The translations under genes were made by a program, and so were the position numbers. Positions 5,888 through 34,912 of a stretch of DNA of 61,207 bases are shown piece after piece (position 1 is the stretch's first letter; the number at the start of each line of letters is the position of its first letter). The notes beneath the pieces were generated by a model, which saw nothing but the letters and a program-made list of their open reading frames with translations, searched no databases and had not been told where the DNA came from. The DNA is from Bacteroidales bacterium (GTDB lineage: Bacteria > Bacteroidota > Bacteroidia > Bacteroidales > ML635J-15), in contig JAQIBY010000052.1 in NCBI GenBank assembly GCA_027858835.1, positions 1 to 61,207 on the forward strand, given 5' to 3'.

Positions 5888-7213
5888 TTAGTCCTTCACA
5901 CAACGTACTGACAGCCCGCTGATTTTAACGCTTGAACCAAGTTGTGCGTCCTCAACAAAGTAACAAAGGTCAAGGCTTGCGACATTGTCTGGGCCAAGTT
6001 CTGTTGAAGACCAAAATTTTGCATCTTCTTCTTCAAATGCGGCATTTTCTCCTGCCGCTAACACACTGAATCCACTACGGTTTCTGTATGAGGGATAATC
6101 TTCATTGCCGGGGGCCCCCTCCGTAGTTGTTGATTTCCATGATGAGGTACTACAAAGCGCTTTGGCTGTTTTATTATTGGTTGTATAATCATTATCACCA
6201 TCCACACTACCATCATAATTATATCCATTATTTTGGAGGGCAATGATCATGTCTTCAAACTCTGTATTTGAGGGGACATGCCAGCCAGTGGGACAAAGGT
6301 TCCCGGCATTAACAGCTTCAAAGTTATAAAGTGCACCATAAATTGAAGCGTAAGTAACACTATCATAATCACAATAACAACGCCCCCCTGTTGTAAGATC
6401 AATCCATGTCGCCTGATCCGGTATATTAGGAATGGGTACATTGTTATTATATTTAGAAGTTTTCAGGTTTTCAGCCATCCACATCGTTCCAGCAATTTCC
6501 ACCACTGTGTATTTATTACCATCTGTATCCATGCAATCTTCAAAAAATACTGTCAATTGATAATCATCAGTAATTTTATATACATAAATCCTGGAGTAGC
6601 CTTCACCCCATGCGGTAAAAATTAGCACATCATTTTCATCATACTGCCAGTCAACAAGCGCAGCAGATTTTATGCTTTTTTGATGTGAAGCAATTTTAGA
6701 TTCTCTATTTTGTACTTGCGCTATTTGTATCTCCGAAGCGTTATTGCCTGTGAAATTCAAAGTTTCAGCATAGGTATGATTATTAGTTTTCACAGACAGC
6801 ACAAAAGTTCCTCGGTTAAGGCCGGATAAACTGTATGCATTTAGACCTGCAAAAGCAGATACGCTCTTAGAAATAATTTTTCTTCCTGCCAAATCGTAAA
6901 CAGACAGTTGGGCATCTCCGGCAAGCTCAGACCAGAATTCCACCATGATCTCACTATATGCCGGATTGGGATAAACAGAAAAGTTGTTTTCAGTTGTATG
7001 CAAGTCAATGGTATTAACAACATCAACGAGATGCAGGGTGTCATCGCCATTTACGGTAATGGATTTTTGCTGAGTAATATTTTCAACCTGCACACTGTCA
7101 ACCTGATCGGTAGGTGTGTCAACACTATACGCACTGAAAGTAACTTTGTAATCTTGCGCTAAAAGCGAGCAACTTAAAAATACTGCGGCAAACAATAAAA
7201 GTAAATTTTTCAT
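5888..7213 (-). CDS. FISUMP-domain surface protein with internal T9SS-like domain
   Basis: A secreted protein of about 441 residues. The signal peptide is MKNLLLLFAAVFLSC...LLAQ. The open frame allows a start 8 codons upstream at 7237, but ATG 7213 gives the clean signal peptide. Residues about 65-145 look like a T9SS sorting domain (FSVYPNPAYSEIMVEF, LSVYDLAGRKI, GTFVLSV) but are internal. The C-terminal half is a FISUMP domain (Fibrobacter succinogenes major paralogous domain): DTDGNKYTVVEIAGTMWMAE, LKTSKYNNN, CPTGWHVPSNTEFEDM, FWSST and SVRCVKD. FISUMP proteins are abundant secreted proteins of unclear role. The N-terminal half is related to that of the DUF285 protein at 21586. Confidence 0.85.
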   Translation of the reverse strand: MKNLLLLFAAVFLSCSLLAQDYKVTFSAYSVDTPTDQVDSVQVENITQQKSITVNGDDTLHLVDVVNTIDLHTTENNFSVYPNPAYSEIMVEFWSELAGDAQLSVYDLAGRKIISKSVSAFAGLNAYSLSGLNRGTFVLSVKTNNHTYAETLNFTGNNASEIQIAQVQNRESKIASHQKSIKSAALVDWQYDENDVLIFTAWGEGYSRIYVYKITDDYQLTVFFEDCMDTDGNKYTVVEIAGTMWMAENLKTSKYNNNVPIPNIPDQATWIDLTTGGRCYCDYDSVTYASIYGALYNFEAVNAGNLCPTGWHVPSNTEFEDMIIALQNNGYNYDGSVDGDNDYTTNNKTAKALCSTSSWKSTTTEGAPGNEDYPSYRNRSGFSVLAAGENAAFEEEDAKFWSSTELGPDNVASLDLCYFVEDAQLGSSVKISGLSVRCVKD

Positions 7214-7527
7214 TTTAAAATGGTTTTTTGGTTTCATCTATCAGCTAAGATATGAAATTTATTGATACATAGCAAAATACAATTCCAGACAACCTGTCTT
7301 TGCGGAAATATTTTAGCGGCCTTGTAAAGGTTAAATTCAGCAACTCACTACGCTAGTAAATAGACAATTTGTGAAATTTTTCACTTACCTCCTACTTGTA
7401 TTATCTTACTGATATGACTATAGGATTCAAAGAGGGAAGTGGTTTGATTGGTAAATGGATTACGAATAAAAACACAGCGCTGAAGAAACATTACAGTTTC
7501 ACAAATTAGTTTTGTTGTTATTCAATT
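7214..7527. other. Intergenic region between divergent genes
   Basis: An AT-rich spacer between the FISUMP gene (minus) and the TPR regulator (plus). I see no gene, RNA or strong hairpin. No clear promoter for the minus-strand gene was found. The plus-strand promoter begins at 7528. Confidence 0.5.
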
Positions 7528-21585: not shown

Positions 21586-23292
21586 ATGAAACGCCTTTTC
21601 TTACTAACTGTTTTCGCTTTTATTTGTGTTCTAACTTTTGCTCAGGAAATTGCTTTTACATTCACTGCACATTATCATAGTGAATATGCAGCACTGGACA
21701 GTGTGTTGGTAAAAAACATCAGCCAAAATAGAGATACTACCCTTTTTTGGCCTGACACGGTATTAAATCTTGACCTCAGTAGTATTCCGAATATTACTGC
21801 AAGCCCAAACCAGTTATTTTTATCGCCGAATTTTCCAAATCCATTTAACGGCAGCACTGAAACAACACTTTTTTTACCCACATCAGTTCAAGTGAACTTA
21901 GAGTTATATGATTTGAATTCTCAGAAGCTTGCAAATTATAATACAGACTTAGAACGGGGTTACCATAATTTTACAATTTGTCTTGAAAAAGTGGGTGTTT
22001 TTATCTTAATTGTTAGCGCTGGGAATATGACAGAACAGGTGAAAATAATTAACACAGGTAAGCACTCTGGTAATGACGCCTCTATCATATATCAAGGCAA
22101 TTCCACAGATGGTAATACAAATAACCTTCATCAAAAACAAACAGATGTTGATGGTTCATATTTCATATACAACTCCGGGGATACCCTGAAATTTACAGGA
22201 TATATAAACGGAGCCTCAGCGTATATCACGGATGCACCGGAACAAGACAGTACGTTTCTTATCAGTATTCAACCTACTTTTGATTTTGTGATTGAAACCA
22301 CTGATGTGCAAACAAGTTACAGTTTTACAGTAGGTGGACCTGACGAATTTGAGGTAATATGGGAACCGGGACAGTCAGTAGTTTACAACAGCAGCGGAGA
22401 GATATCCCACAATTTTGGAGAAGCAGGCATGTGGCGCATAAAAGTCAGAGGAGAAGCTGATTATATATTGTTTAACGAAAATCCAGAAATGTTTAGAGAT
22501 ATACTAACACCTGTAGAACCTGCTGTTACAGGCATAATGTTGTCAGCCAATATGTTTAGGGGGATTACGGTATCCTCATTCTCCTGTGAAAATTGGTTTG
22601 ATCAAGCCTCTCAAGGCATTTCAGATATGTCACATATGTTTAATGGATCAGCATACAATCAAGACATAAGCAATTGGAGTATGAGCTCAGCAACAAACTT
22701 AAGTGGCATGTTTGCAGGTTCCGATTTCAATCAGCCATTAAATGACTGGCATGTCCACAATGTTGAGTCATTTGCCATAATGTTTTCAGGCAGCGCTTAT
22801 AATCAAGACCTTAGTAACTGGAATGTGAGTGGAGCTACTGATATGAGTGATATGTTCAGCTACTCAGAGTTTAATCAACCAATTGAGAACTGGGATGTCA
22901 GCAATGTGACTAACATGGCTTGCATGTTTAGTTATTCGGTTTTTAACCAAGATATTAGCAATTGGGATGTAAGTAATGTCACCAACATGGGATATATGCC
23001 TTATAATACCAATGGCATGTTTCAAAATTCAGCATTCGATCAAGATATCAGTACTTGGGATGTTTCCAGTGTAATTAATTTTACGAATTTCCTCAAAAAC
23101 TCTGCATTATCAACTGAGCATTACAATAATTTATTAATTCAATGGTCAGAATTGAATCTTCAGCCAGGAGTAACTTTTGATGGCGGAAATAGTATGTATG
23201 ATTTAGGTTTGCCAGCAGATCAGCGACAATATATTATTGATGAATTTGGTTGGATATTTAATGACGGTGGAGATACCGGCGAGCAATATTGA
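21586..23292 (+). CDS. BspA-like DUF285-repeat surface protein
   Basis: A 568-residue secreted protein. The signal peptide ends in TFAQ. Residues about 20-240 match in layout the N-terminal half of the FISUMP protein at 5888: FTFTAHYHSEYAALDSVLVK, an internal T9SS-like domain with PNFPNPFNGSTE, then a FTGYINGASAYIT segment. Residues about 330-520 carry about six DUF285 repeats of 25 residues, each of the form FNQDISNWDVSNVTNM..MF, as in BspA family leucine-rich-like surface proteins and mycoplasma lipoproteins. These bind host or matrix proteins in some bacteria; the role here is inferred adhesion. There is no sorting domain at the C-terminus, which ends DGGDTGEQY. Confidence 0.87.
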   Translation: MKRLFLLTVFAFICVLTFAQEIAFTFTAHYHSEYAALDSVLVKNISQNRDTTLFWPDTVLNLDLSSIPNITASPNQLFLSPNFPNPFNGSTETTLFLPTSVQVNLELYDLNSQKLANYNTDLERGYHNFTICLEKVGVFILIVSAGNMTEQVKIINTGKHSGNDASIIYQGNSTDGNTNNLHQKQTDVDGSYFIYNSGDTLKFTGYINGASAYITDAPEQDSTFLISIQPTFDFVIETTDVQTSYSFTVGGPDEFEVIWEPGQSVVYNSSGEISHNFGEAGMWRIKVRGEADYILFNENPEMFRDILTPVEPAVTGIMLSANMFRGITVSSFSCENWFDQASQGISDMSHMFNGSAYNQDISNWSMSSATNLSGMFAGSDFNQPLNDWHVHNVESFAIMFSGSAYNQDLSNWNVSGATDMSDMFSYSEFNQPIENWDVSNVTNMACMFSYSVFNQDISNWDVSNVTNMGYMPYNTNGMFQNSAFDQDISTWDVSSVINFTNFLKNSALSTEHYNNLLIQWSELNLQPGVTFDGGNSMYDLGLPADQRQYIIDEFGWIFNDGGDTGEQY

Positions 23293-23866: not shown

Positions 23867-23899
23867 TTGTTGAATTTGTTCGATAATTGTGTATATTTG
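23867..23899 (+). promoter_or_regulatory. Promoter for the T9SS protein at 23921
   Basis: A -33-like TTGTTG at 23867-23872, a 19-bp spacer, and a -7 TATATTTG at 23892-23899. The ATG is 21 bp downstream. Confidence 0.65.
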
Positions 23900-23920
23900 A
23901 TGCAACCAAAATCAATTATA

Positions 23921-26900
23921 ATGAAAAAGCTTTATTTATTTTTGTTGATACAACTGGCATTGTTATCAGTTTTATCAGCGCAGGTTGTTACGCAACAGCA
24001 GAATTTTAATTGTAATCCGGTAGTTAAATCTACAAATGTTAAAATCAAGTCTGAAAAGTCAAATCCTGTATGGGAGTGCACTTTTGATGAAACCACTCCC
24101 CTTTATACCACTGGTCACCTGCTCGGTGATGCAGACTGGGAGGTAAGTGATACTACCCCTAATACGGTAACTTTTGAAAATGGAGTTGATTTTACTGATG
24201 ATAATTTGCCCCCGGGAACTATGGTAACTGCCCTGTGGTTGTATATGGGATACCGTGATGTCGGGGAGTACTCCCTGTCAGGAGGTAACTTTGCCTCTAT
24301 CGATGGAATTTCCTTCCTCATGGAGGAAAATTATGTGGATATACATGCTTGGATACAATTTAATTCTATTGACCTTTCCACCCTATCAAATCCTCGGCTT
24401 ATTCTGACTCAGAATTACAAAGCCTATAATTTTGATACATGTTTTATTGATCTGAGTGTTGATGGTGGTACTGTGTGGAGTGAAACTCTGATTGTGAATG
24501 GAGAAGCAGCAGCCAATCAGTATGGAGAGGATGTATTAAGTGTGGATTTACCAATCTCTCTTGCAAATCAATCTAATGTTTCAGTCAGAATGAGATGGAA
24601 TGCACCTGGGGGAAGTATGTCTTATGGCGGATATGGCTGGGAAATAGATGATTTGAGAATCGAACAAATACCGGTATATGATCTCAATCTCGCTGATGCC
24701 CGGATGAATTTTTTCGAATATATTGATTATACAGATCCTGTTAATTCTGAGTATTTTCACATCTCATCACATTATGGTATGATCCCTCAAAGCCAGTTTG
24801 GTTCAAGTATGAGTGAGATGGTTTGGAATGCAATCGTAGAGAATAACGGTGTACAAGCAATGAATCCTGATTTTCAGGTACGGGTCAGCAACCCCGAGGG
24901 AACTGAGTTGTATAATAATGTGGTTACAGGTCCATTGCTTGAATCCGGCAACAGAGACACAATAGATCTTATTAGTCCCATGTTTGTACTTGACAATCCT
25001 GTGCTCGGTGAGTATTCTGTCGATTACAGCATAAATTCATCAGAGGATTTAAATCTTGAAAACAATGTTGACAGCACCAAGTTTTTCGTAACTGAGGATA
25101 CTTATGCAAGAGACTTAGGCAATATAAGCAGCTCTATCTCAATGGGGGACTATCTGGAAGGAGGAAATGACGGGGATATGCTTGGTACTTCCTATTTGTT
25201 TCTTGCCAATGAAACGGTTTTTGCTATATCTGTTTTTATTGATGAGGAAACAACTGTGGGAACTGGTATCGTTGGCCATTTAATGGATTTTTCTCAGACG
25301 ATTTCAAGTTGGACTGATGTTTCGTCATCTTCTTTACATGTCATAACAGAAGATGACCTTGGTACTTGGGTGGATTTAGCGCTCGTAGATCCGGTAAGTG
25401 TTGATGTTTCACTTGAAGACGGTTCAATTACTTACAATGCAGCGATTGAGTTCTTCTACGAAGGTGATGAGATAAGAATTGGTACTGACCCAACGGTTAA
25501 GAACAGTATATGGGGAAATTATTTTTATTTTACATCGGAAGGGAATTGGTACAACGTTACATCTGTAAACGAAGCTCTGGCAATACGGTTGAAATTGTCA
25601 GAAATTGATATTCCTGAGATTGAATTGGGTGATGACATCTCCACCTGTCAGGACAGTATTATGCTGGATGCAGGGAGTGGCTTCCAAACTTATTGGTGGA
25701 ATGGAAATGAAGGTGAACAGACACATATGGTCACAGAATCAGGACAATATGTTGTTGTCGCTGAAACAGCTTATGGTTCACAGGTAACAGATACTATTGA
25801 TGTGCAAATCAATGAAAATCCAATAATTTTTCCACTTATGACAAGCCCTGAAGACGGAGTGTTACAATCCGGAGATTTAGGCAGCCTGTGGATTTTAGAT
25901 TCAGAACCCGATACTGAGTACTGGGTGCAAAATGGTACCGATACCGTTTTTTCTCCGGTAGTTGGTATTGCCGATAGCCTTGGATTAGGAACAAATTATA
26001 CAACAGGAACATATGAAGTGTACGCTAAAAAGATGATTACAGGTTGTGAAAGCTTCCTGGGATCGTTTAGCTTTGTGGAAAACAATGGCCTGACAAGTAT
26101 TGTAGCAAGGGTAACATACAATGATCCTCCGATAAGTTTTCCTGAAGGAACTGCAGAAGTTTTTCTATACCGAGACAATGCCGGTTCAGTTGAACTGCAA
26201 AGCGCTACACTTACTGCTGAGAATTGTATGGCTAGTTTTACAGATATCGAAGCCGGAACTTACTTCTTGGCTTCAAATCTTGTAACCTCGGATGATTATA
26301 ATTGTTCTGAATACGTCTATTTTGAAGATGCTCTGATTTTTGATGATGCCACAGCTATTGAGATTGCTGAAGGAGAAATGCGCCTACTTGACCTGCACCA
26401 TATTCAGTTAGCAGGAACTATTGGTTCTAACAATGTATCTGGCACAGTTGGAGAACAAGGACGAAATACCCTAAACATGCTTGAAGATATGCTTGTAGCG
26501 ATGACTGACGGGCAAACCGGAGACGTACTTGAAGTCCAAGTGACGAATCAGAATGGAGAATTTGAATTTGTGGATGTGCCTAACTATGCCAACCTTGAGT
26601 TTTTTGTATCCAATCCTATTTTTCCTGAATGGATACCAGCTGTCTTGAATACCAATAGCGGAGAATCTTATGTAATTAATTTTGTCGTCGATGGAAACCA
26701 AGTGTATCCTCTTGGTAAAGAGGAAATCACAGAAATATCCAATCAGATACAGCTTTATCCCAATCCTTCGACAGGTTTTGTGCATATTTCCAGTTCGATG
26801 GATATTGTATCTGTGATTATTACAGATATTGAAGGCCGACAGGTGGCTAAACTTGAGGCTGATTTTGATGAAATTGATATTAAAGGGCTGGAAACTGGTG

Positions 26901-26962
26901 TTTACTTCTTAAAAATTCAAACAAGTAAAGAAATCATCACTAGGAAGCTAATCAAACACTAA
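23921..26962 (+). CDS. Large T9SS-secreted protein, paralogue of 51195-53150
   Basis: A protein of about 1013 residues; ATG 23921 is chosen over a TTG 54 bp upstream because it opens a clean signal peptide (MKKLYLFLLIQLALLSVLSA) and follows the promoter. Residues about 50-250 are a MAM/jelly-roll-like domain (FENGVDFTDDNLPPGTMV, GGYGWEIDDLRIE); then MNFFEYIDYTDPVNSEYFHI and the YARDLG module. All this matches the protein at 51195. Unlike that one, it carries about 390 extra residues with Ig-like/gliding-type modules (LGDDISTCQDSIMLDAG, WWNGNEGEQTHMV) and a carboxypeptidase-regulatory-like region. It ends in a type A sorting domain (LYPNPSTGFVHI to KLIKH). Surface adhesin or scaffold; function unknown. 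Confidence 0.85.
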   Translation: MKKLYLFLLIQLALLSVLSAQVVTQQQNFNCNPVVKSTNVKIKSEKSNPVWECTFDETTPLYTTGHLLGDADWEVSDTTPNTVTFENGVDFTDDNLPPGTMVTALWLYMGYRDVGEYSLSGGNFASIDGISFLMEENYVDIHAWIQFNSIDLSTLSNPRLILTQNYKAYNFDTCFIDLSVDGGTVWSETLIVNGEAAANQYGEDVLSVDLPISLANQSNVSVRMRWNAPGGSMSYGGYGWEIDDLRIEQIPVYDLNLADARMNFFEYIDYTDPVNSEYFHISSHYGMIPQSQFGSSMSEMVWNAIVENNGVQAMNPDFQVRVSNPEGTELYNNVVTGPLLESGNRDTIDLISPMFVLDNPVLGEYSVDYSINSSEDLNLENNVDSTKFFVTEDTYARDLGNISSSISMGDYLEGGNDGDMLGTSYLFLANETVFAISVFIDEETTVGTGIVGHLMDFSQTISSWTDVSSSSLHVITEDDLGTWVDLALVDPVSVDVSLEDGSITYNAAIEFFYEGDEIRIGTDPTVKNSIWGNYFYFTSEGNWYNVTSVNEALAIRLKLSEIDIPEIELGDDISTCQDSIMLDAGSGFQTYWWNGNEGEQTHMVTESGQYVVVAETAYGSQVTDTIDVQINENPIIFPLMTSPEDGVLQSGDLGSLWILDSEPDTEYWVQNGTDTVFSPVVGIADSLGLGTNYTTGTYEVYAKKMITGCESFLGSFSFVENNGLTSIVARVTYNDPPISFPEGTAEVFLYRDNAGSVELQSATLTAENCMASFTDIEAGTYFLASNLVTSDDYNCSEYVYFEDALIFDDATAIEIAEGEMRLLDLHHIQLAGTIGSNNVSGTVGEQGRNTLNMLEDMLVAMTDGQTGDVLEVQVTNQNGEFEFVDVPNYANLEFFVSNPIFPEWIPAVLNTNSGESYVINFVVDGNQVYPLGKEEITEISNQIQLYPNPSTGFVHISSSMDIVSVIITDIEGRQVAKLEADFDEIDIKGLETGVYFLKIQTSKEIITRKLIKH

Positions 26963-27131: not shown

Positions 27132-27204
27132 GAACCCGCTGTTTCAGGATTAATTATGTTCCGTAGTATTACAGTGTCGTCCTTTACCTGTGGAAATTGC
27201 TTTG
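27132..27204 (+). pseudogene. Fragment of a DUF285-type surface protein gene
   Basis: This stretch is recognisably homologous to 22516-22600 inside the DUF285 gene: both read EPAV(S/T)G, then MFR.ITVSSF.C.N in the same frame, with a 10-bp gap. It has no flanking partner sequence and runs directly into an unrelated gene fragment at about 27205, so it is debris from a duplicated or recombined paralogue. Confidence 0.6.
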
Positions 27205-27205
27205 T

Positions 27206-28084
27206 CTCTGGCAAGACACAGATGGTAATCGCAAAGATTTGAGAGAGCTTATTTTCCGAGAATTGGTTGCGAATATAATTATTCATCGTGAATATAATAG
27301 TGCTGTTAGCACAGAAGTTATTGTTTACAACGACAGAGTTGTAGCAACCAATCCAAATCGCAGCCGGTTTACTGGGTCTCTTGATTTGGAAACATTTGAA
27401 GCAGAACCTAAAAATCCAAACATTAGAGCATTTTTTAACATCCTTACTTGGGCAGATGAAATTGGGTCGGGCGTGCGCAATATGAATAAATTTGTTGCAA
27501 CATATACAGATGGTGCACGGCCTGTTTTTATTGAAGATATGATTTTTAAGAGTACCATTCCCATGCTGGTTTACAAACTTAAAGATAAATCAGAATTGTA
27601 TCTCCATTTGGCCCAAATAACTTCTGAGCAATTGGGAGCAGATAATACCAAAGCACTTAAGCAACTTACACTGGATCTTACTTTCAAAGACACAGTTGAT
27701 TTTGATGAACTTGCTTTGAAATTGGTAAGTACTTGGTCAGAAAAAAGTGGGGACTTGCCAAATTTCAGATTCTTGATAAACAAGGAGTTAAGTTTAGGAA
27801 AACTAAAAAAAGTGGGGAGCTGGACAGAAAAAAGTGGGAAGCTATTAAAAAAACGTGCAAGGGTTTTATTAAGTACACTTATGCTGACGCTCACTCCAAT
27901 ATCCCTTGATGATCTGGCAGTAAAACTGGGTTATCGCAGCAAAGATCGTTTTAGGGATGATTACATTAAACCGTTGAAAGATAATAAACTCATTGAATAT
28001 ACTTTACAAAAAGCAAATGACCCCAACCAGCAATATGTAATTTCACGAAAAGGAAAATTGTTTTTAGGTGGGAGTTCGTTCTAA
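27206..28084 (+). pseudogene. 5'-truncated ATP-binding / AlbA-RecG-like transcriptional regulator
   Basis: The C-terminal part (about 290 codons) of a protein that normally starts with a Schlafen AlbA_2 DNA-binding domain, followed by a RecG-like ATP-binding domain and a winged helix; full-length members are near 450-550 residues. Seen here: LRELIFRELVANIIIHREY, EVIVYNDRVVATNPN, PKNPNIRAFFNILTWADEIG, GSGVRNMNKFV, then the C-terminal winged helix (SLDDLAVKLGYRSKDRFRDD, YIKPLKDNKLIEYT, YVISRKGKLFL). The AlbA_2 domain and a natural start are missing; upstream sequence is an unrelated DUF285 fragment. It could be expressed from TTG 27197, but it is best read as a relic. Confidence 0.72.
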
Positions 28085-28146: not shown

Positions 28147-30573
28147 ATGAAACAGATTGGCTTATTTTGGGTGTGTTTTTGTTTTTTTGTGTCGTTTGGA
28201 TACGCACAAACTACCCTTTTCAACATTTCTGAATATCCGGAAAGCTCGAATGTTCAAAAATCTATACGGCAGAATTTACCGGTAGAAGTTGACAATTCTA
28301 TACTTTCATTTTTCCCTCCGATTTACAATCAGCAGCACAATGTTTGTAATCAGGTTTCTGTTTCCTATTATTTAATGTCTTATGAAATAAATTGCAAACT
28401 CGGGCGTGATGGCAGCCTGCCCGAGAATCAAATGTCAGTTTATTTTCCTTACAATTTCAATAATGGCGGATACGGATGGTATGGATCAAATTTTTTGCAA
28501 ACATTTGATTTGGCAAAGCGTCAAGGCATACCTTCCCGTGCTGTATTTGGAGACACTGCTCATATGGACAGCATAACATGGATGAGCGGAATTGAAAAAC
28601 ATAAATCAGCATTTGCAAATCGTGCAAAAACCTATTATGCCATTGATTTATCTTCTGAAACCGGCATTACAAAACTTAAAGCATGGTTATACGATCATCT
28701 TAACGACGAATCAAATGGTGGCGTGGCGCTTATTATGGGCGGATTTAATTTTTTAGGAACCTTACCGGAAGCGTCGCCATACGCAGGCGAAAAAATTCTC
28801 CACGGATGGGGTAATGTTGCCACACATGCAAGAGTAATTGTCGGGTACAATGATTCCATCCGTTTTGATGCAAACGGCGACGGAGAATTTACAAACGATA
28901 TTGATCTCAACAATGATGGAATTATCGATATCAGAGACTCTGAATTCGGGGCATTCAAATATGCAGAATCTTACGGAACAGAAACCGGAAATAACGGATA
29001 TTACTGGGCAATGTACCGTACTTTTGCGGAAATCCCGGCAAACGAAGGCGTGCTTAATAAATCTGCATACCTCATGATTCCACGTATTGATTCCGAGCCA
29101 CAACTCAGAGCGGAAATCCAGCTTAACCACGATCAACGAAATCAATTACAAATCGGTATCGGACTTTCAAGCGGAGAAAATTTAAATGAAATTGAGAAAC
29201 AGTTTTATTTTCCGATTGTAAATTATCAAGGAGGACCGCGTCCTATGCAAGGTTTTGATATTCAAGGGGCAGAGCATTTTGAATATGCACTTGATTTGAC
29301 AGAAGTTTTATCTTATGTGAATCCGGGAGAAACTTTCCGCTTGCACTTGCTCGTTAACACTGCCGACATAGCAAATCCCGGCAACGGAAACATACAATCC
29401 TTTAGCATTGTAGATTGCACCGGAAATGAAGATATCTATTTTCAAAACACATCTGAGGTTTCGATTACAAATTATCCGGAACAGCCAATGTCCATCGATT
29501 TAAGTTTGGATTTTGATAAAATGGAACTCATTACCGACTCATTAAATTACGGCAGCCCTGGCGAATTCTTTCAGCAGCAACTTGAGTGCAGTGGTGGCAC
29601 AGAACCATATACCTGGTCACTTATTTATGATTGGAATCTTGTATTGGAAGAAGTAGCATTCAACCTAAATTCGTCAGCAGAAAAAATTTCTCCTGACGAA
29701 TCATTCAGTGGTGAAATTCCCGTACAATTGCCATTTGATTTTCCGTTTGGAAACTCCACAACAAACCAAATTCAAGTCTCAGCAAGGGGATACATCATGC
29801 CCTCGGCAGAAATAGAAATGGGTAGTTATTTTCGCGATTATTTGCGACCTATGCTTATTAATAACCCTGTGATTGCTGTGTTACCCAGAGATTACACGTA
29901 TGTAAATCCGGAAAAAGATGATGGAATTTGGATGGATAGCTCAACAGAAGTTGTACATATTTACTGGAAACTAAGCGAAAACAATCAACCGGATAATTAT
30001 GCTGCAGAATATGCAGTGAGTTTATATCCGGATGGAACAATTGAATTTCACTATGGAAACATTTCTCTGAGCGGAACTGCAGAAAAAATTTACGGTGTTT
30101 CATTAGGAGATGGCATTTCTCTTCGGCTTATTAACATAAACCGCTATCCGGCAGAACATTCACTACTGCGATTTACTCCACAATTAAACCCGGAAATTTC
30201 ATTGAGCGAATCTGGTTTTCTGCAAGGACAAATCGCATCTCCTGAAACAATGTATCTAAAACTATGCATTGAGGATGCCAAAGGTCAAATCCTAATTTGT
30301 GATCTGCTACAAAAAGACAGCTCAGGAATTGATTTTGATGCCATTGAGACTGGTATTTACCCGAATCCCTGCAGCAACAGATTTCGTTTTATCAGTAATG
30401 ATGATCAAAACTATGAACTCCGAATCTTTGATTTACAGGGAAAATTAGTACATCAAGCGACAATTCAAGACAATCAGTATGTTTATGTCAAAAGTTTAAG
30501 AAATTCTCAGTATATTGTGTGGATAAAATCATCTACGGGAGAACTCAAAAAATTCCCTTTAATTATTATCTAA
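28147..30573 (+). CDS. Secreted papain-like cysteine peptidase with T9SS sorting domain
   Basis: An 808-residue protein. The signal peptide ends FGYAQ. Residues about 50-295 form a papain-like (C1-type) domain: Q62 and catalytic C67 in IYNQQHNVCNQVS, and H227 in ATHARVIVGYND. Between the His and the end of the domain sits a dockerin/EF-hand-like calcium site (DANGDGEFTND, then DLNNDGIIDIRDSE). The usual catalytic Asn is not evident: where the paralogue at 30581 has NNTY, this one has AESYG, so activity is uncertain. A central Ig-like region and a type A sorting domain (ETGIYPNPCSNRFRF) follow. It lies 7 bp before its larger paralogue, so the two form an operon. A -7-like TACCTTGT lies 6 bp before the ATG, implying a very short leader. 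Confidence 0.75.
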   Translation: MKQIGLFWVCFCFFVSFGYAQTTLFNISEYPESSNVQKSIRQNLPVEVDNSILSFFPPIYNQQHNVCNQVSVSYYLMSYEINCKLGRDGSLPENQMSVYFPYNFNNGGYGWYGSNFLQTFDLAKRQGIPSRAVFGDTAHMDSITWMSGIEKHKSAFANRAKTYYAIDLSSETGITKLKAWLYDHLNDESNGGVALIMGGFNFLGTLPEASPYAGEKILHGWGNVATHARVIVGYNDSIRFDANGDGEFTNDIDLNNDGIIDIRDSEFGAFKYAESYGTETGNNGYYWAMYRTFAEIPANEGVLNKSAYLMIPRIDSEPQLRAEIQLNHDQRNQLQIGIGLSSGENLNEIEKQFYFPIVNYQGGPRPMQGFDIQGAEHFEYALDLTEVLSYVNPGETFRLHLLVNTADIANPGNGNIQSFSIVDCTGNEDIYFQNTSEVSITNYPEQPMSIDLSLDFDKMELITDSLNYGSPGEFFQQQLECSGGTEPYTWSLIYDWNLVLEEVAFNLNSSAEKISPDESFSGEIPVQLPFDFPFGNSTTNQIQVSARGYIMPSAEIEMGSYFRDYLRPMLINNPVIAVLPRDYTYVNPEKDDGIWMDSSTEVVHIYWKLSENNQPDNYAAEYAVSLYPDGTIEFHYGNISLSGTAEKIYGVSLGDGISLRLININRYPAEHSLLRFTPQLNPEISLSESGFLQGQIASPETMYLKLCIEDAKGQILICDLLQKDSSGIDFDAIETGIYPNPCSNRFRFISNDDQNYELRIFDLQGKLVHQATIQDNQYVYVKSLRNSQYIVWIKSSTGELKKFPLIII

Positions 30574-30580
30574 AATTGAT

Positions 30581-33500
30581 ATGAAAAAATATTACTTTAT
30601 TTTAATAAGCGTCCTTCTAACGGTCAGTTTAACTCAAGCACAAAATAAATATCCGGAAGGAAAATATTCAACAGACAGCTTAAAACCACTGACCAATAAG
30701 GAGCAGCAAAAATTGCGCATGTTGCCGGAGCTAAAACTTCCCACGCAATACAAAAACATGAGTCTCCCCTACGCTGTGGACAACTCAACACAGCCATACA
30801 TGCGAGATATTTTCAATCAATCCGGACTGGACTGTGGACAAGCAGCTGCTGTTGCCATTGGTTTTACTTATGAAATCAACCGTTTACGTAATCTTGCTTC
30901 CGATCAACTTAGCACGACTTACCCCTCGTATTTTGTCTGGAATTGGGAAAACGGAGGAAATGGCTGGTACGGAGTCAGTTATTACCACAGCATGGACATT
31001 CTAAGAATGGTTGGCACGCCCAATCTGGATGTTTATGAAGAAAATGTAAATGGCGGTGATGGAACACGATTTATGTCAGGCTACGACAAATATTTACACG
31101 CCATGACCAATCGAATTCGGGGCGCATATTCCATTAATGTCTCAGATGAAGAGGGCTTAGAAAACTTCAAACATTGGCTGGATCATCATCACGAAGGTTC
31201 GAATGTTGGCGGTGTTGCATTTTTCTACTCACAATATCAATCTCCTTCAAACACATTGCCGACAGAATCTGAACATGCCGGAGAAAAAGTCATTACAAGT
31301 TGGGGCTCATCGCCAAATCATGGAATGGCAATTGCCGGATATAATGACTCCATTAAATATGATTACAATGGTGACGGACAATTCACCAATCACATTGATA
31401 TTAATAATGACGGTGTCGTGGATATGAAAGATTGGGAAATTGGCGCCGTGCTGATGAATAACACCTATCATTCTTATCCAGCAAATGATTGGGGAAATGA
31501 AGGATACGCATGGATGATGTACAGAACCTTAGCACTTGACAGGTATAGTGGTGGAATCTGGAACAACACAGTCAATGTGCTAAAGGCAAAAGAAAACTAT
31601 GCCCCTCAGCTTACCATGAAAATTCAAATGGAGCATAATAAACGTCAACGTGTAAAAATGAACGTTGGAATGACAACAAACCTAAGCTCTGATGAACCAA
31701 TGTACTTACTGGATTTCCCAATTTTTGATTTCCAAGGTGCAGATCAAAGAATGCAAGGTGGAAGTGATGAAGGTGCAGAATTTATGGAGTTTGGTTACGA
31801 CCTGACGCCTTTCCTAAACTATTTGCAACCCGGAGAGACAGCAAAATTTATATTTCAACTGGAAGAGGATGACCCCGACAGTACAGGAACAGGGGAATTT
31901 ATCTCCATGAGTTTGATTGATTACACCGGGGCAACACCCATAGAAACCGATTGCGGTCAAAATAATTTGGCACTAGTGGACAATGGAATGCTTAAGGTAC
32001 CTGTTACAGCAAGTATAAATTTCGATCCACCGGAAATTACAACAGAAAGTTTCCCGGTTGCCACAATTTATGAACCATACAGCCACCAATTATTGGCAAC
32101 CAACGGAACTGAACCTTATAGCTGGTCTTGGGATATGGATTTCGAAATTGAAAATGAAATCGGAACCTATCCCAGTTTAAGCGGATCAAGCATTTCTACA
32201 GGAGGAGCCAATTATGCAGAATACGAATTGCCCTTTGAGTTTCCTTATTACGATTCGGTTTATTCCAGCATTTATGTGTATAAAACCGGTGCGATTATGA
32301 TGGAAGCATTACCCACCGATTTACCATATAATTCTGATGATGATGTGGTTTTCTTTAATCGTAAAATGATTGCCGCATTGTATATGGAAGAAAACGGAAG
32401 TTTGGGATCTCCTGCATTGCAAAGTGTTGAAAACGCTGACAATGTCCATTTTATCTGGTCAAGCACTGATTATCAATTCAGCATTCGATTATATGAAGAT
32501 GGAAGCATAAAAATGTATTACGGAGACAATAATCTATCTGACCACCAGCGCTTTGTAGCAGGAGCTTCATCCGGAGATCAGGAATTTGCACAAATTTTAC
32601 CCATCTCAAATGCAGAAAGCATCCAAAACGGACTGATTTATACGCTAACACCACATCAAATCCCTGACGAATTCGCAATTTCAGAAGACGGGCTCGTATC
32701 CGGGACACCAACACAACAATATCTGGCAGAACCCTTACCGGTACGTGTGAAAGATGAAAATAATCTTATCAATAAAAAAATTGTACCGATTAGCACCGAT
32801 GGATTTATAATTGATTACGCGTTTCACACAACAAATAATGATGTGTTAGAAACCGGTGAAACTGCAACTATGGATATCACTTTAATTAATGAAACTGAAG
32901 AAAATATCACAGGCGTTTCTGTGAGTTTAAGTTCTACACATCCTGCCGTTACAATTACCGACGACACCGAATTTTTTGGAGACATTGATGCAGCATCAAC
33001 ACCAAGCATTTCAGATGCCTTTAGTTTTGATATCGGACATGAATGCGAAGACGGAGAAGAATTAGATTTCATCATTCATGTAACATCCGACCAAGAAAAC
33101 TGGGAAAGACCAATTACTGAAATCGTATATGCACCAAAAATTGTTGCGCTAAATGCTGCAATTGATGATGGAGATAACGGACGACTTGACGAAGGTGAAA
33201 ATGCAGATTACCTGCTCACAGTATCAAATGCAGGAGGCGGAGACATCCAAAATGTGAGTTTTCTGCTAACTAGCGATGATGAATACCTCACCATAAATAC
33301 AAGCAGTGAATTTTCAGCAAATCTGCCAAGCGAAGCACAAGACATATTATCTTTCAACCTTTCAGCAGATGCTGCAACCCCACTAGGACATGTTGCTCCC
33401 ATGATGCTTTATGTGAATAATGATAATTACTCAGACAGCATTCAATTGTATCTTAGTATCGGACTAATTGTCGAAGATTGGGAAACCAGCGACATGGAAC

Positions 33501-34912
33501 AGTTTTCATGGTACACTGAGGGCACCGCAGATTGGTTTATTTCCGATGACACTTCCTTCAATGGTTCTATTTGTTTAGAATCTGGCGATATTAATGATAG
33601 TCAGCTTTCTACCGTGAAAATAGGAGTGCAAGTTTTAACCCAAGACACAATAAGATTCCACAGAAAAGTTTCTTGCGAACAAGATGCAAACAATACCAAT
33701 TGGGATTATCTTGCATTTCTTATTGATGGTGTTGAACAAGCACGATGGGACGGCGAACAGAATTGGGAACAATTTTCTTATCCTGTATCAAGCGGATTCC
33801 GAATTTTTGAATGGAAATACATAAAGGATGGCTCGGTTTCAAATTTTGAGGATTGCGCATGGATTGATGACATTATTTTCCCCTCAATTTATGATGCCCC
33901 ACCGCAGGCTTTTGTCAGTGTTGACAGTATTTACAAGCAAATGCCAATGGAAACAACCGATACAGATACCATTTTTATTTCAAATATTGGCGGAGGAATT
34001 CTCGGATATAATTTAGAATTACGAAATGTTCCGGAAAACACCCAAGGAGGCAAAAGCATTGCAGGTTCAACCTTAAGTTGTTCAGCAGATAATTTTATAA
34101 TGGGTGAATCGGTTAATTGGGATTTGACAGTTACTAACGGATCCACAGACTCAGAATGGATAAAAAACATTATGATTAACTTCCCTTCCGGGATGGAAAT
34201 CATCTCTGCAACAGATTTTTACGATAGTAACGACACACTATTCTCAAATGAAATTTTGGGAGATGGTGTGATAATTACCTGGTTTAATGAAACCGATGCA
34301 GGTTGGGGAATTATTACCGGAGGAGAAACTGCAACAGCAAGCATTAGCGCAGATATTGCCGAGGATTTTTCAGGGGATTTGGAAATTGAATATCAATTTG
34401 TTGGTGATATTTATGGTGCTGACCCGCATTACATTAACGATATCCTCGTAATTGAGAATCTCGGACCTCCAATTGATTGGCTGCAAATTTCACCTGAATC
34501 AGGACAAGCACATCAACCAAATACGGACAGCATTATACTCCACTGGGATACGCATGGAATGGAGCCCGGAATGTACGAAGCAGAATTAATGGTCTATTTA
34601 ACAAACGACACACTCATAATTCCTGTTTCATTAGAGGTTACCTGGCCGGTAGATATTGAGCCAATTACGGAAAACATGCTTGAGATTTATCCGAATCCGA
34701 CACATGATATCCTCTATATTAATCTGAATGGAATTGATGAGAAATCAGAGCTTGAAATAATTGATATTCAAGGCCGTGTAATAATGAAACAATCACTTAA
34801 TGCAAATCAGAAAAACACAAGATTGAATTGTCAAGATTTACCTCAGGGAAGTTACATCATCCGATTTATTTCCGGAGACCATATTATGCAACGGAAATTT
34901 ATTAAAATGTAA
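30581..34912 (+). CDS. Large secreted papain-like cysteine peptidase with T9SS sorting domain
   Basis: A 1443-residue protein. After the signal peptide (ending TQAQ), residues about 60-320 are a papain-like domain: oxyanion Q80 and catalytic C85 in FNQSGLDCGQAAAVAIG, H247 in SSPNHGMAIAGYND, and a candidate Asn in LMNNTYHSY before WGNEGYAWMMYRT. As in the upstream paralogue, an EF-hand-like insert (DYNGDGQFTNHIDINNDG) follows the His. The rest is modular: an Ig-like He_PIG-type region (VATIYEPYSHQLLATNGTEP), CARDB-like repeats, a jelly-roll around 1000-1110 (WEQFSYPVSSG, WIDDIIFPS), DUF11-like modules, and a type A sorting domain (IYPNPTHDILYI to KFIKM). Probably an extracellular protease acting on protein nutrients or surface proteins. 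Confidence 0.8.
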   Translation: MKKYYFILISVLLTVSLTQAQNKYPEGKYSTDSLKPLTNKEQQKLRMLPELKLPTQYKNMSLPYAVDNSTQPYMRDIFNQSGLDCGQAAAVAIGFTYEINRLRNLASDQLSTTYPSYFVWNWENGGNGWYGVSYYHSMDILRMVGTPNLDVYEENVNGGDGTRFMSGYDKYLHAMTNRIRGAYSINVSDEEGLENFKHWLDHHHEGSNVGGVAFFYSQYQSPSNTLPTESEHAGEKVITSWGSSPNHGMAIAGYNDSIKYDYNGDGQFTNHIDINNDGVVDMKDWEIGAVLMNNTYHSYPANDWGNEGYAWMMYRTLALDRYSGGIWNNTVNVLKAKENYAPQLTMKIQMEHNKRQRVKMNVGMTTNLSSDEPMYLLDFPIFDFQGADQRMQGGSDEGAEFMEFGYDLTPFLNYLQPGETAKFIFQLEEDDPDSTGTGEFISMSLIDYTGATPIETDCGQNNLALVDNGMLKVPVTASINFDPPEITTESFPVATIYEPYSHQLLATNGTEPYSWSWDMDFEIENEIGTYPSLSGSSISTGGANYAEYELPFEFPYYDSVYSSIYVYKTGAIMMEALPTDLPYNSDDDVVFFNRKMIAALYMEENGSLGSPALQSVENADNVHFIWSSTDYQFSIRLYEDGSIKMYYGDNNLSDHQRFVAGASSGDQEFAQILPISNAESIQNGLIYTLTPHQIPDEFAISEDGLVSGTPTQQYLAEPLPVRVKDENNLINKKIVPISTDGFIIDYAFHTTNNDVLETGETATMDITLINETEENITGVSVSLSSTHPAVTITDDTEFFGDIDAASTPSISDAFSFDIGHECEDGEELDFIIHVTSDQENWERPITEIVYAPKIVALNAAIDDGDNGRLDEGENADYLLTVSNAGGGDIQNVSFLLTSDDEYLTINTSSEFSANLPSEAQDILSFNLSADAATPLGHVAPMMLYVNNDNYSDSIQLYLSIGLIVEDWETSDMEQFSWYTEGTADWFISDDTSFNGSICLESGDINDSQLSTVKIGVQVLTQDTIRFHRKVSCEQDANNTNWDYLAFLIDGVEQARWDGEQNWEQFSYPVSSGFRIFEWKYIKDGSVSNFEDCAWIDDIIFPSIYDAPPQAFVSVDSIYKQMPMETTDTDTIFISNIGGGILGYNLELRNVPENTQGGKSIAGSTLSCSADNFIMGESVNWDLTVTNGSTDSEWIKNIMINFPSGMEIISATDFYDSNDTLFSNEILGDGVIITWFNETDAGWGIITGGETATASISADIAEDFSGDLEIEYQFVGDIYGADPHYINDILVIENLGPPIDWLQISPESGQAHQPNTDSIILHWDTHGMEPGMYEAELMVYLTNDTLIIPVSLEVTWPVDIEPITENMLEIYPNPTHDILYINLNGIDEKSELEIIDIQGRVIMKQSLNANQKNTRLNCQDLPQGSYIIRFISGDHIMQRKFIKM

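Follow-up and report, generated by a model that had tools for sequence, protein, structure and literature searches.

Two adjacent genes of an uncultured Bacteroidales bacterium encode predicted papain-fold peptidases, in which a double calcium-type loop lies between the catalytic His and the third residue of the triad. We favor, with a probability of roughly 0.55, the reading that these proteins, here called A and B, are co-encoded, T9SS-exported surface cysteine peptidases that are both active, have calcium-stabilized loops, and differ in pH range or specificity. The genes lie on contig JAQIBY010000052.1 (assembly GCA_027858835.1), all 61,207 nt of which were analyzed and are referred to as the window. 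The features of the pair are as follows.

28147..30573, + strand: gene A, predicted papain-fold protein of 808 aa, T9SS cargo, Cys-His-Glu (ORF; PF18962; AF2; xylellain match)
28276..29094, + strand: peptidase domain of A (family alignment)
28330..28347, + strand: QQHNVC of A, oxyanion Gln62 to putative catalytic Cys67 (conservation in 212 domains)
28825..28833, + strand: putative catalytic His227 of A and the A-specific Arg229 at His+2 (orthologue comparison)
28867..28944, + strand: double calcium-type loop insert of A, DANGDGEFTNDIDLNNDGIIDIRDSE (alignment, spacing)
28966..28968, + strand: Glu274 of A at the triad Asn position (Glu in 13/13 A orthologues)
30355..30573, + strand: T9SS type A sorting domain of A (PF18962, 8.9e-10; TIGR04183)
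30581..34912, + strand: gene B, predicted papain-fold protein of 1443 aa, T9SS cargo, Cys-His-Asn (ORF; PF18962; AF2; xylellain match)
30641..30763, + strand: N-terminal stretch of B, aa 21-61, possible mini-propeptide (aligns with the C-terminal part of cathepsin propeptides)
30764..31600, + strand: peptidase domain of B (alignment, model)
30818..30835, + strand: QSGLDC of B, oxyanion Gln80 to putative catalytic Cys85 (Cys at helix N-terminus in the model)
31319..31321, + strand: putative catalytic His247 of B (family alignment)
31361..31438, + strand: double calcium-type loop insert of B, DYNGDGQFTNHIDINNDGVVDMKDWE (alignment; pLDDT 96-98; spacing)
31460..31462, + strand: triad Asn294 of B (orthologue comparison)
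34685..34912, + strand: T9SS type A sorting domain of B (PF18962, 5.7e-15; TIGR04183)

A preliminary description had placed tandem T9SS cargo genes at 28147-34912, and both the coordinates and the sorting tails proved exact. The two genes are adjacent paralogues on the + strand, 7 bases apart from stop to start, and their products are 32% identical over A 43-704 and B 61-715, with a beta-domain downstream of the peptidase domain in both. Each begins, as judged by eye, with a signal-peptide-like stretch and ends in a type A T9SS sorting domain; given that SprA, part of the T9SS machinery, is encoded in the same genome (2714 bits), A and B both have the properties of type A cargo. The same description had suggested looking for this arrangement elsewhere, and A-B was found in the same order in 11 related genomes.

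The papain fold first proposed for both proteins was borne out by structure prediction. The AF2 models, built from alignments of only the window and L102-L180 sequences (in A3, both window proteins and 67 of the 98 near-full domains from these loci; in A4, the same two and 60 such domains), reached pLDDT 92.7 and pTM 0.91 for B, and pLDDT 88.2 and pTM 0.90 for A. The best fold match of either model is xylellain (3ois), with Z 20.1 at 2.9 A over 235 residues for B, and Z 20.9 at 2.5 A over 225 residues for A, and all 50 matches listed per model are papain-family structures; a Foldseek search, run for B and not separately for A, gave 8.2e-8. The absence of a calcium-loop papain from the fold matches listed carries no evidential weight either way. 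In both models, the core helix starts at the catalytic Cys (B 65-83 and A 47-65, model numbering). Many of the zymogen structures matched by B align from within their propeptide, model residues 4-9 onward pairing with the pro region, so the approximately 40 residues before the B domain, positioned where C1A propeptides end, may correspond to a small propeptide. We also considered an alternative nucleophile, with the family's CGQA laid on papain CGSC, which would turn the invariant Cys into the structural Cys22 and leave Ala or Val as the nucleophile. This was rejected because several divergent members keep the papain Gln-to-Cys spacing of six, and because the predicted core helix begins at the Cys we chose.

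The similarity to papain C1A enzymes thus includes the fold, with Z about 20, the Gln-Cys-His set of both proteins and, in B, the Asn. In sequence, the family is remote from C1A, with the papain profile aligning only over a 40-residue stretch around the Asn. Most family members have a Gln-to-Cys spacing of 5, compared with 6 in papain, and neither the double calcium loop nor the T9SS tail is known as a papain feature. Pfam and NCBIfam detected no peptidase domain in A or B, and where NCBIfam models with peptidase names did match, they either covered the sorting tail or matched weakly outside the peptidase domain. PF00112 gave no hit to A or B and, at E 0.01, none among the 69 sequences of alignment A3; it matched 4 of the 34 members of alignment A1 at E up to 10 (best 6.5e-6). 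Among loop-less relatives, this profile recognizes L185 (1.5e-18) and L186 (1.6e-13), but not L058. A PF00112 protein of the canonical kind (E 1e-37), carrying lectin-like and PKD domains, is encoded in the genome of L288 (G000:C26:5662-6306). We predict from the models that A and B are papain-fold, C1-like peptidases of clan CA; A, which lacks the Asn, is called papain-fold and C1-like rather than a canonical C1 member.

Searching with the B domain gave matches in 19 of 61 genomes (its own and 60 relatives). With a profile built from 34 domains, picked from 57, members of the family turned up across 54 of the order's 184 genera, in 70 of 295 genomes. In a class sample, the profile matched 8 of 395 genomes, including its own, with some matches weak and partial. 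A single-sequence search of 395 genomes of the phylum returned only the source genome, and single-protein scans of viral contigs and genome contigs returned no relative. A scan of named genomes yielded 364 relatives, with the best 79 loci retained; the titles are nearly all from Bacteroidales or other Bacteroidota metagenome genomes, the exceptions being two records labelled Chlorobiota and one labelled Alphaproteobacteria. From loci L032 upward, 299 ORFs reduced to 215 distinct sequences and, after three short ones were dropped, to an alignment of 212 near-full domains. A literature search on T9SS and papain, in a corpus with little coverage of subscription journals, found no relevant paper; a second, on papain and EF-hand with the same coverage, found classification papers whose searched passages do not mention the family.

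The two Asp-rich loops reported after the catalytic His are present in both paralogues and near-invariant among the 212 domains. The insert is 26 residues long (DxNxDGxFTNxxDxNxDGxxDxxDxE), and its acidic positions are among the columns with the highest conservation, together with the Cys and His. D200 (B-domain numbering, counted from nt 30764) is Asp in 209, N202 is Asn in 208, D204 is Asp in 209, D212 and D216 are kept in 206 and 204, and E225 is Glu in 210, compared with 211 for the catalytic Cys and 212 for the His. In 201 of the 212 domains, the third residue lies exactly 47 positions from the His, compared with 16 in papain. The second loop (D-x-N-x-D-G-x-x-D-x-x-D) fits, in sequence, the 12-residue EF-hand ligand spacing of 1, 3, 5, 7, 9, and 12, with acidic residues or Asn at positions 1, 3, 5, 9, and 12. 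The final Asp of the first loop is the first Asp of the second, and position 12 of the first loop has no acidic residue. With E values of up to 10 allowed, 19 of 34 domains match EF-hand_5, the best of them at 4.8e-4; in the B domain of the window, the matches to EF-hand and dockerin models stay below the Pfam cut-offs. We use the label "EF-hand-like" only, since the B model has no helix-loop-helix, with a strand, the loop, a three-residue helix, and a strand instead of flanking helices. The loop sequences suggest calcium binding.

In the B model, a strand containing the His (227-239) is followed by the double loop (241-266), a second strand (267-273), and Asn274 (model numbering), with confidence of 96-98 in ten-residue blocks across the loop. 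The loop begins at His+14, and its last residue lies 8 positions ahead of the triad residue. The original placement of the loop between the His and the distal part of the fold therefore stands in sequence; in the fold, the predicted strand lengths put it at the far tip of the His-Asn hairpin, which we judge to be away from the active site. In the mechanism we favor, the loops would hold one or two calcium ions in the extracellular space, and this calcium would pin the tip of the beta-hairpin whose strands hold the His and the third triad residue, such that it would stabilize the fold rather than switch activity.

Calcium could also be a regulatory switch, with the hairpin disordered and the His out of register when calcium is missing, leaving the enzymes off inside the cell and on outside. 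In the B model the loops do connect the His strand with the strand leading to the triad residue, and there are precedents. The CHAP domain of LysGH15, a papain-like hydrolase of a phage lysin, is described as having an EF-hand-like calcium switch (ligands at positions 1, 3, 5, 7, and 12) that is close to the active site and needed for activity (PMC4022735), and a metal-triggered opening is described for MOA (Marasmius oreades agglutinin) in PMC8244254. The metal in these precedents is near the active site, with the single LysGH15 loop beside the active-site groove, whereas the loops of A and B would sit at a hairpin tip. In addition, divergent relatives with no loop (L058, L185, and L186) or one loop (L059, L278, and L280) keep the Cys and His. 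We think a switch is improbable, and the location at the hairpin tip favors the structural role. Other relatives have a shorter insert (L056 and L276), and the present-day members together suggest that the site grew from none to two loops.

Calcium has been linked to other papain-like proteases. PMC8244254 names LapG and calpain as the only other calcium-binding ones besides MOA, and reports that the LapG calcium site superimposes on MOA site A; LapG is bacterial and papain-like, but belongs to a different family. Calpain (C2) and its bacterial homologues, such as Porphyromonas gingivalis Tpr, are likewise papain-like, linked with calcium, and present in some Bacteroidetes, and the bacterial calpain homologues lack an EF-hand domain, according to PMC4631099. 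In the text of a papain-family survey (PMC10380794), the words calcium, EF-hand, and dockerin do not occur.

The catalytic residues are as strongly conserved as the loops, with 211 of the 212 domains keeping the Cys, all of them the His, and 207 the oxyanion Gln, and both window genes have the Gln, Cys, and His that characterize papain C1 enzymes. Two of the five Gln-less domains (L180 and L274) are frames open at a contig end, and three (L248, L275, and L279) look like real changes. L275:5573-8050 is a complete member with both an Asn-to-Glu and a Gln-to-Met change, and is more plausible than gene A as a genuine pseudoenzyme. At the third triad position, 174 domains have Asn, 17 Glu, 11 Gln, 8 Asp, 1 Gly, and 1 a gap. 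The triad of B would be Cys85-His247-Asn294, with Asn in 14 of 14 B orthologues. In A, the loss of the Asn noted in the preliminary description is correct as far as it goes, but a single acidic residue, Glu274 (A numbering), fixed in all 13 A orthologues, has replaced it. Changes specific to A include those at active-site positions 25, 188, and 233 (B-domain numbering, from nt 30764). Asn directly follows the Cys in 13 of 13 A orthologues, and is rare or absent elsewhere, while Arg occupies His+2 in 12 of 13 (the exception is L113), at a frequency of 0.0 (rounded) among 185 other Asn/Gln domains.

These changes can be read in different ways. The smaller protein was first proposed to be an inactive partner or inhibitor-like chaperone of the larger one, and A could be a pseudoenzyme with the papain fold, whose efficient catalysis went with the Asn and which serves B as a partner, chaperone, or inhibitor. 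The replacement in every A orthologue and the changes at the three active-site positions are in line with this idea, as is the occurrence of A solely beside B wherever the contig permits, when 2 of the 14 B orthologues are unpaired; the A-specific Arg at His+2 could neutralize Glu274, which would suit a non-catalytic role too. Against it, neither the nucleophile nor the general base, whose loss would define a pseudopeptidase, is missing in A, with Cys, His, and Gln intact in all 13 orthologues, and the family replaces the Asn solely by Gln, Asp, Glu, or, once, Gly. Purifying selection on A also equals that on B. For the same four genome pairs (a fifth was saturated and excluded), dN/dS is 0.107-0.189 for A and 0.080-0.172 for B, and A is thus maintained as strictly as B. 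Finally, other papain-like enzymes can be active with Glu or Asp here. The third residue is Asn, Gln, Asp, or Glu across papain-like families, according to PMC10318531, and MOA is an active calcium/manganese-dependent protease with Cys215-His257-Glu274, according to PMC8244254, which assigns it to a separate clade and calls replacement of the Asn not uncommon. A resembles MOA, by this published description, in the papain fold and the Cys-His-Glu triad, and MOA differs from A and B in being a fungal lectin fusion with a metal cluster that touches the substrate and is located at the dimer interface. We therefore regard a pseudoenzyme as rather unlikely and, judging from the conserved residues and the dN/dS, an active Cys-His-Glu enzyme as more likely than an inactive partner.

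Under the favored reading of two active peptidases, B would act through Cys85-His247-Asn294 and A through Cys67-His227-Glu274, in a site re-tooled by the Asn after the Cys and the Arg at His+2. Re-tooled in this way, the two would have different pH ranges or specificities, and may work alongside each other on shared extracellular material.

Another explanation is an ordinary lineage-specific duplication in which the triad swap is drift at a residue that matters little. Papain Asn175 is described as important but non-essential in PMC8244254, and other members of the family have changed as well, to Gln, Asp, and Gly. Drift is difficult to reconcile with a Glu kept in all 13 A orthologues despite deep divergence (identity between the window A and the 11 A rows in its alignment is 35-41%), accompanied by fixed or nearly fixed changes at two neighboring active-site positions, and we consider this explanation doubtful.

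Among 29 distinct neighboring pairs in the family, 18 combine one acid (Glu/Asp) with one amide (Asn/Gln) copy and none is acid-acid. Twelve consist of a small Glu copy and an Asn partner (the window and 11 others, A always first, two of the partners being short or cut by a contig end); the 13th A is at a contig end. Four have a large Gln or large Asn copy followed by an Asp copy (L116, L117, L123, and L180, the last two cut by contig ends), one has a small Asp copy and an Asn copy (L155), and one has Asn and Asp copies that are both small (L069). In the remaining 11 both copies have Asn, and in one of these, L156, the two genes are on opposite strands. Seven acid members have no visible pair, two of these being at contig ends. 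Ignoring ancestry and omitting members at contig ends, acid copies are more often in tandem (18 of 23) than Asn/Gln copies (35 of 161; Fisher p 1.8e-7). With ancestry counted, there are five independent pairs and the link is not significant (median p 0.5), in agreement with drift.

In a first tree, the small Glu clade (13 rows) is far from the small Asp clade (seven rows, one Glu). A single acid clade was not rejected, with p-AU 0.299 for 46 rows, 0.311 for 60 longer rows, and 0.617 for 212 rows, a set on which the constrained tree scored better than the unconstrained one. We had entertained a convergent origin of the acid/amide pairs, and dropped it because the AU tests are compatible with one clade. 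Ancestry explains much of the pairing. We suggest only tentatively, and think it unlikely, that this family of Bacteroidales surface peptidases works in acid/amide pairs, an Asn/Gln copy and a Glu/Asp copy forming one functional unit on calcium-stabilized hairpins. AlgX-type SGNH hydrolase-like genes follow two of the pairs of a large Gln/Asn and a small Asp copy (L116:16267-17559 and L117:7636-8943).

Gene neighborhoods offered no hint of function: across the 19 loci compared, none of the window neighbors is shared except for one T9SS protein in L106, and uvrB is upstream in the four relatives checked. Upstream in the window, 23867-26962 encodes a further large T9SS cargo protein whose single homologue is in L106, near its A-B pair. 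The 295-aa ORF at 27197-28084 has a TTG start and a match to HATPase_c_4 barely above the cut-off (RecG C-terminal type), and is possibly the remnant of a longer gene. Two other ORFs have a T9SS sorting-domain match in the N-terminal part and not at the C-terminus: the DUF285 protein at 21586-23292 (match at 21832-22050, +) and 5888-7237 (match at 6767-6976, -).

Our analysis points to a name for proteins of many Bacteroidales metagenome genomes to which Pfam and NCBIfam assign none, and the papain fold would gain a family with a calcium-type double loop in the hairpin that connects the His with the third triad residue. Because relatives with zero, one, and two loops exist, the growth of a metal site within an enzyme core can be followed. 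The occurrence of Asn, Gln, Asp, and Glu at one position in close relatives makes the role of the third residue testable with natural variants. If the acid/amide pairing proves true, the acid copy would differ in its chemistry, perhaps by working in another pH range or by processing and activating its partner.
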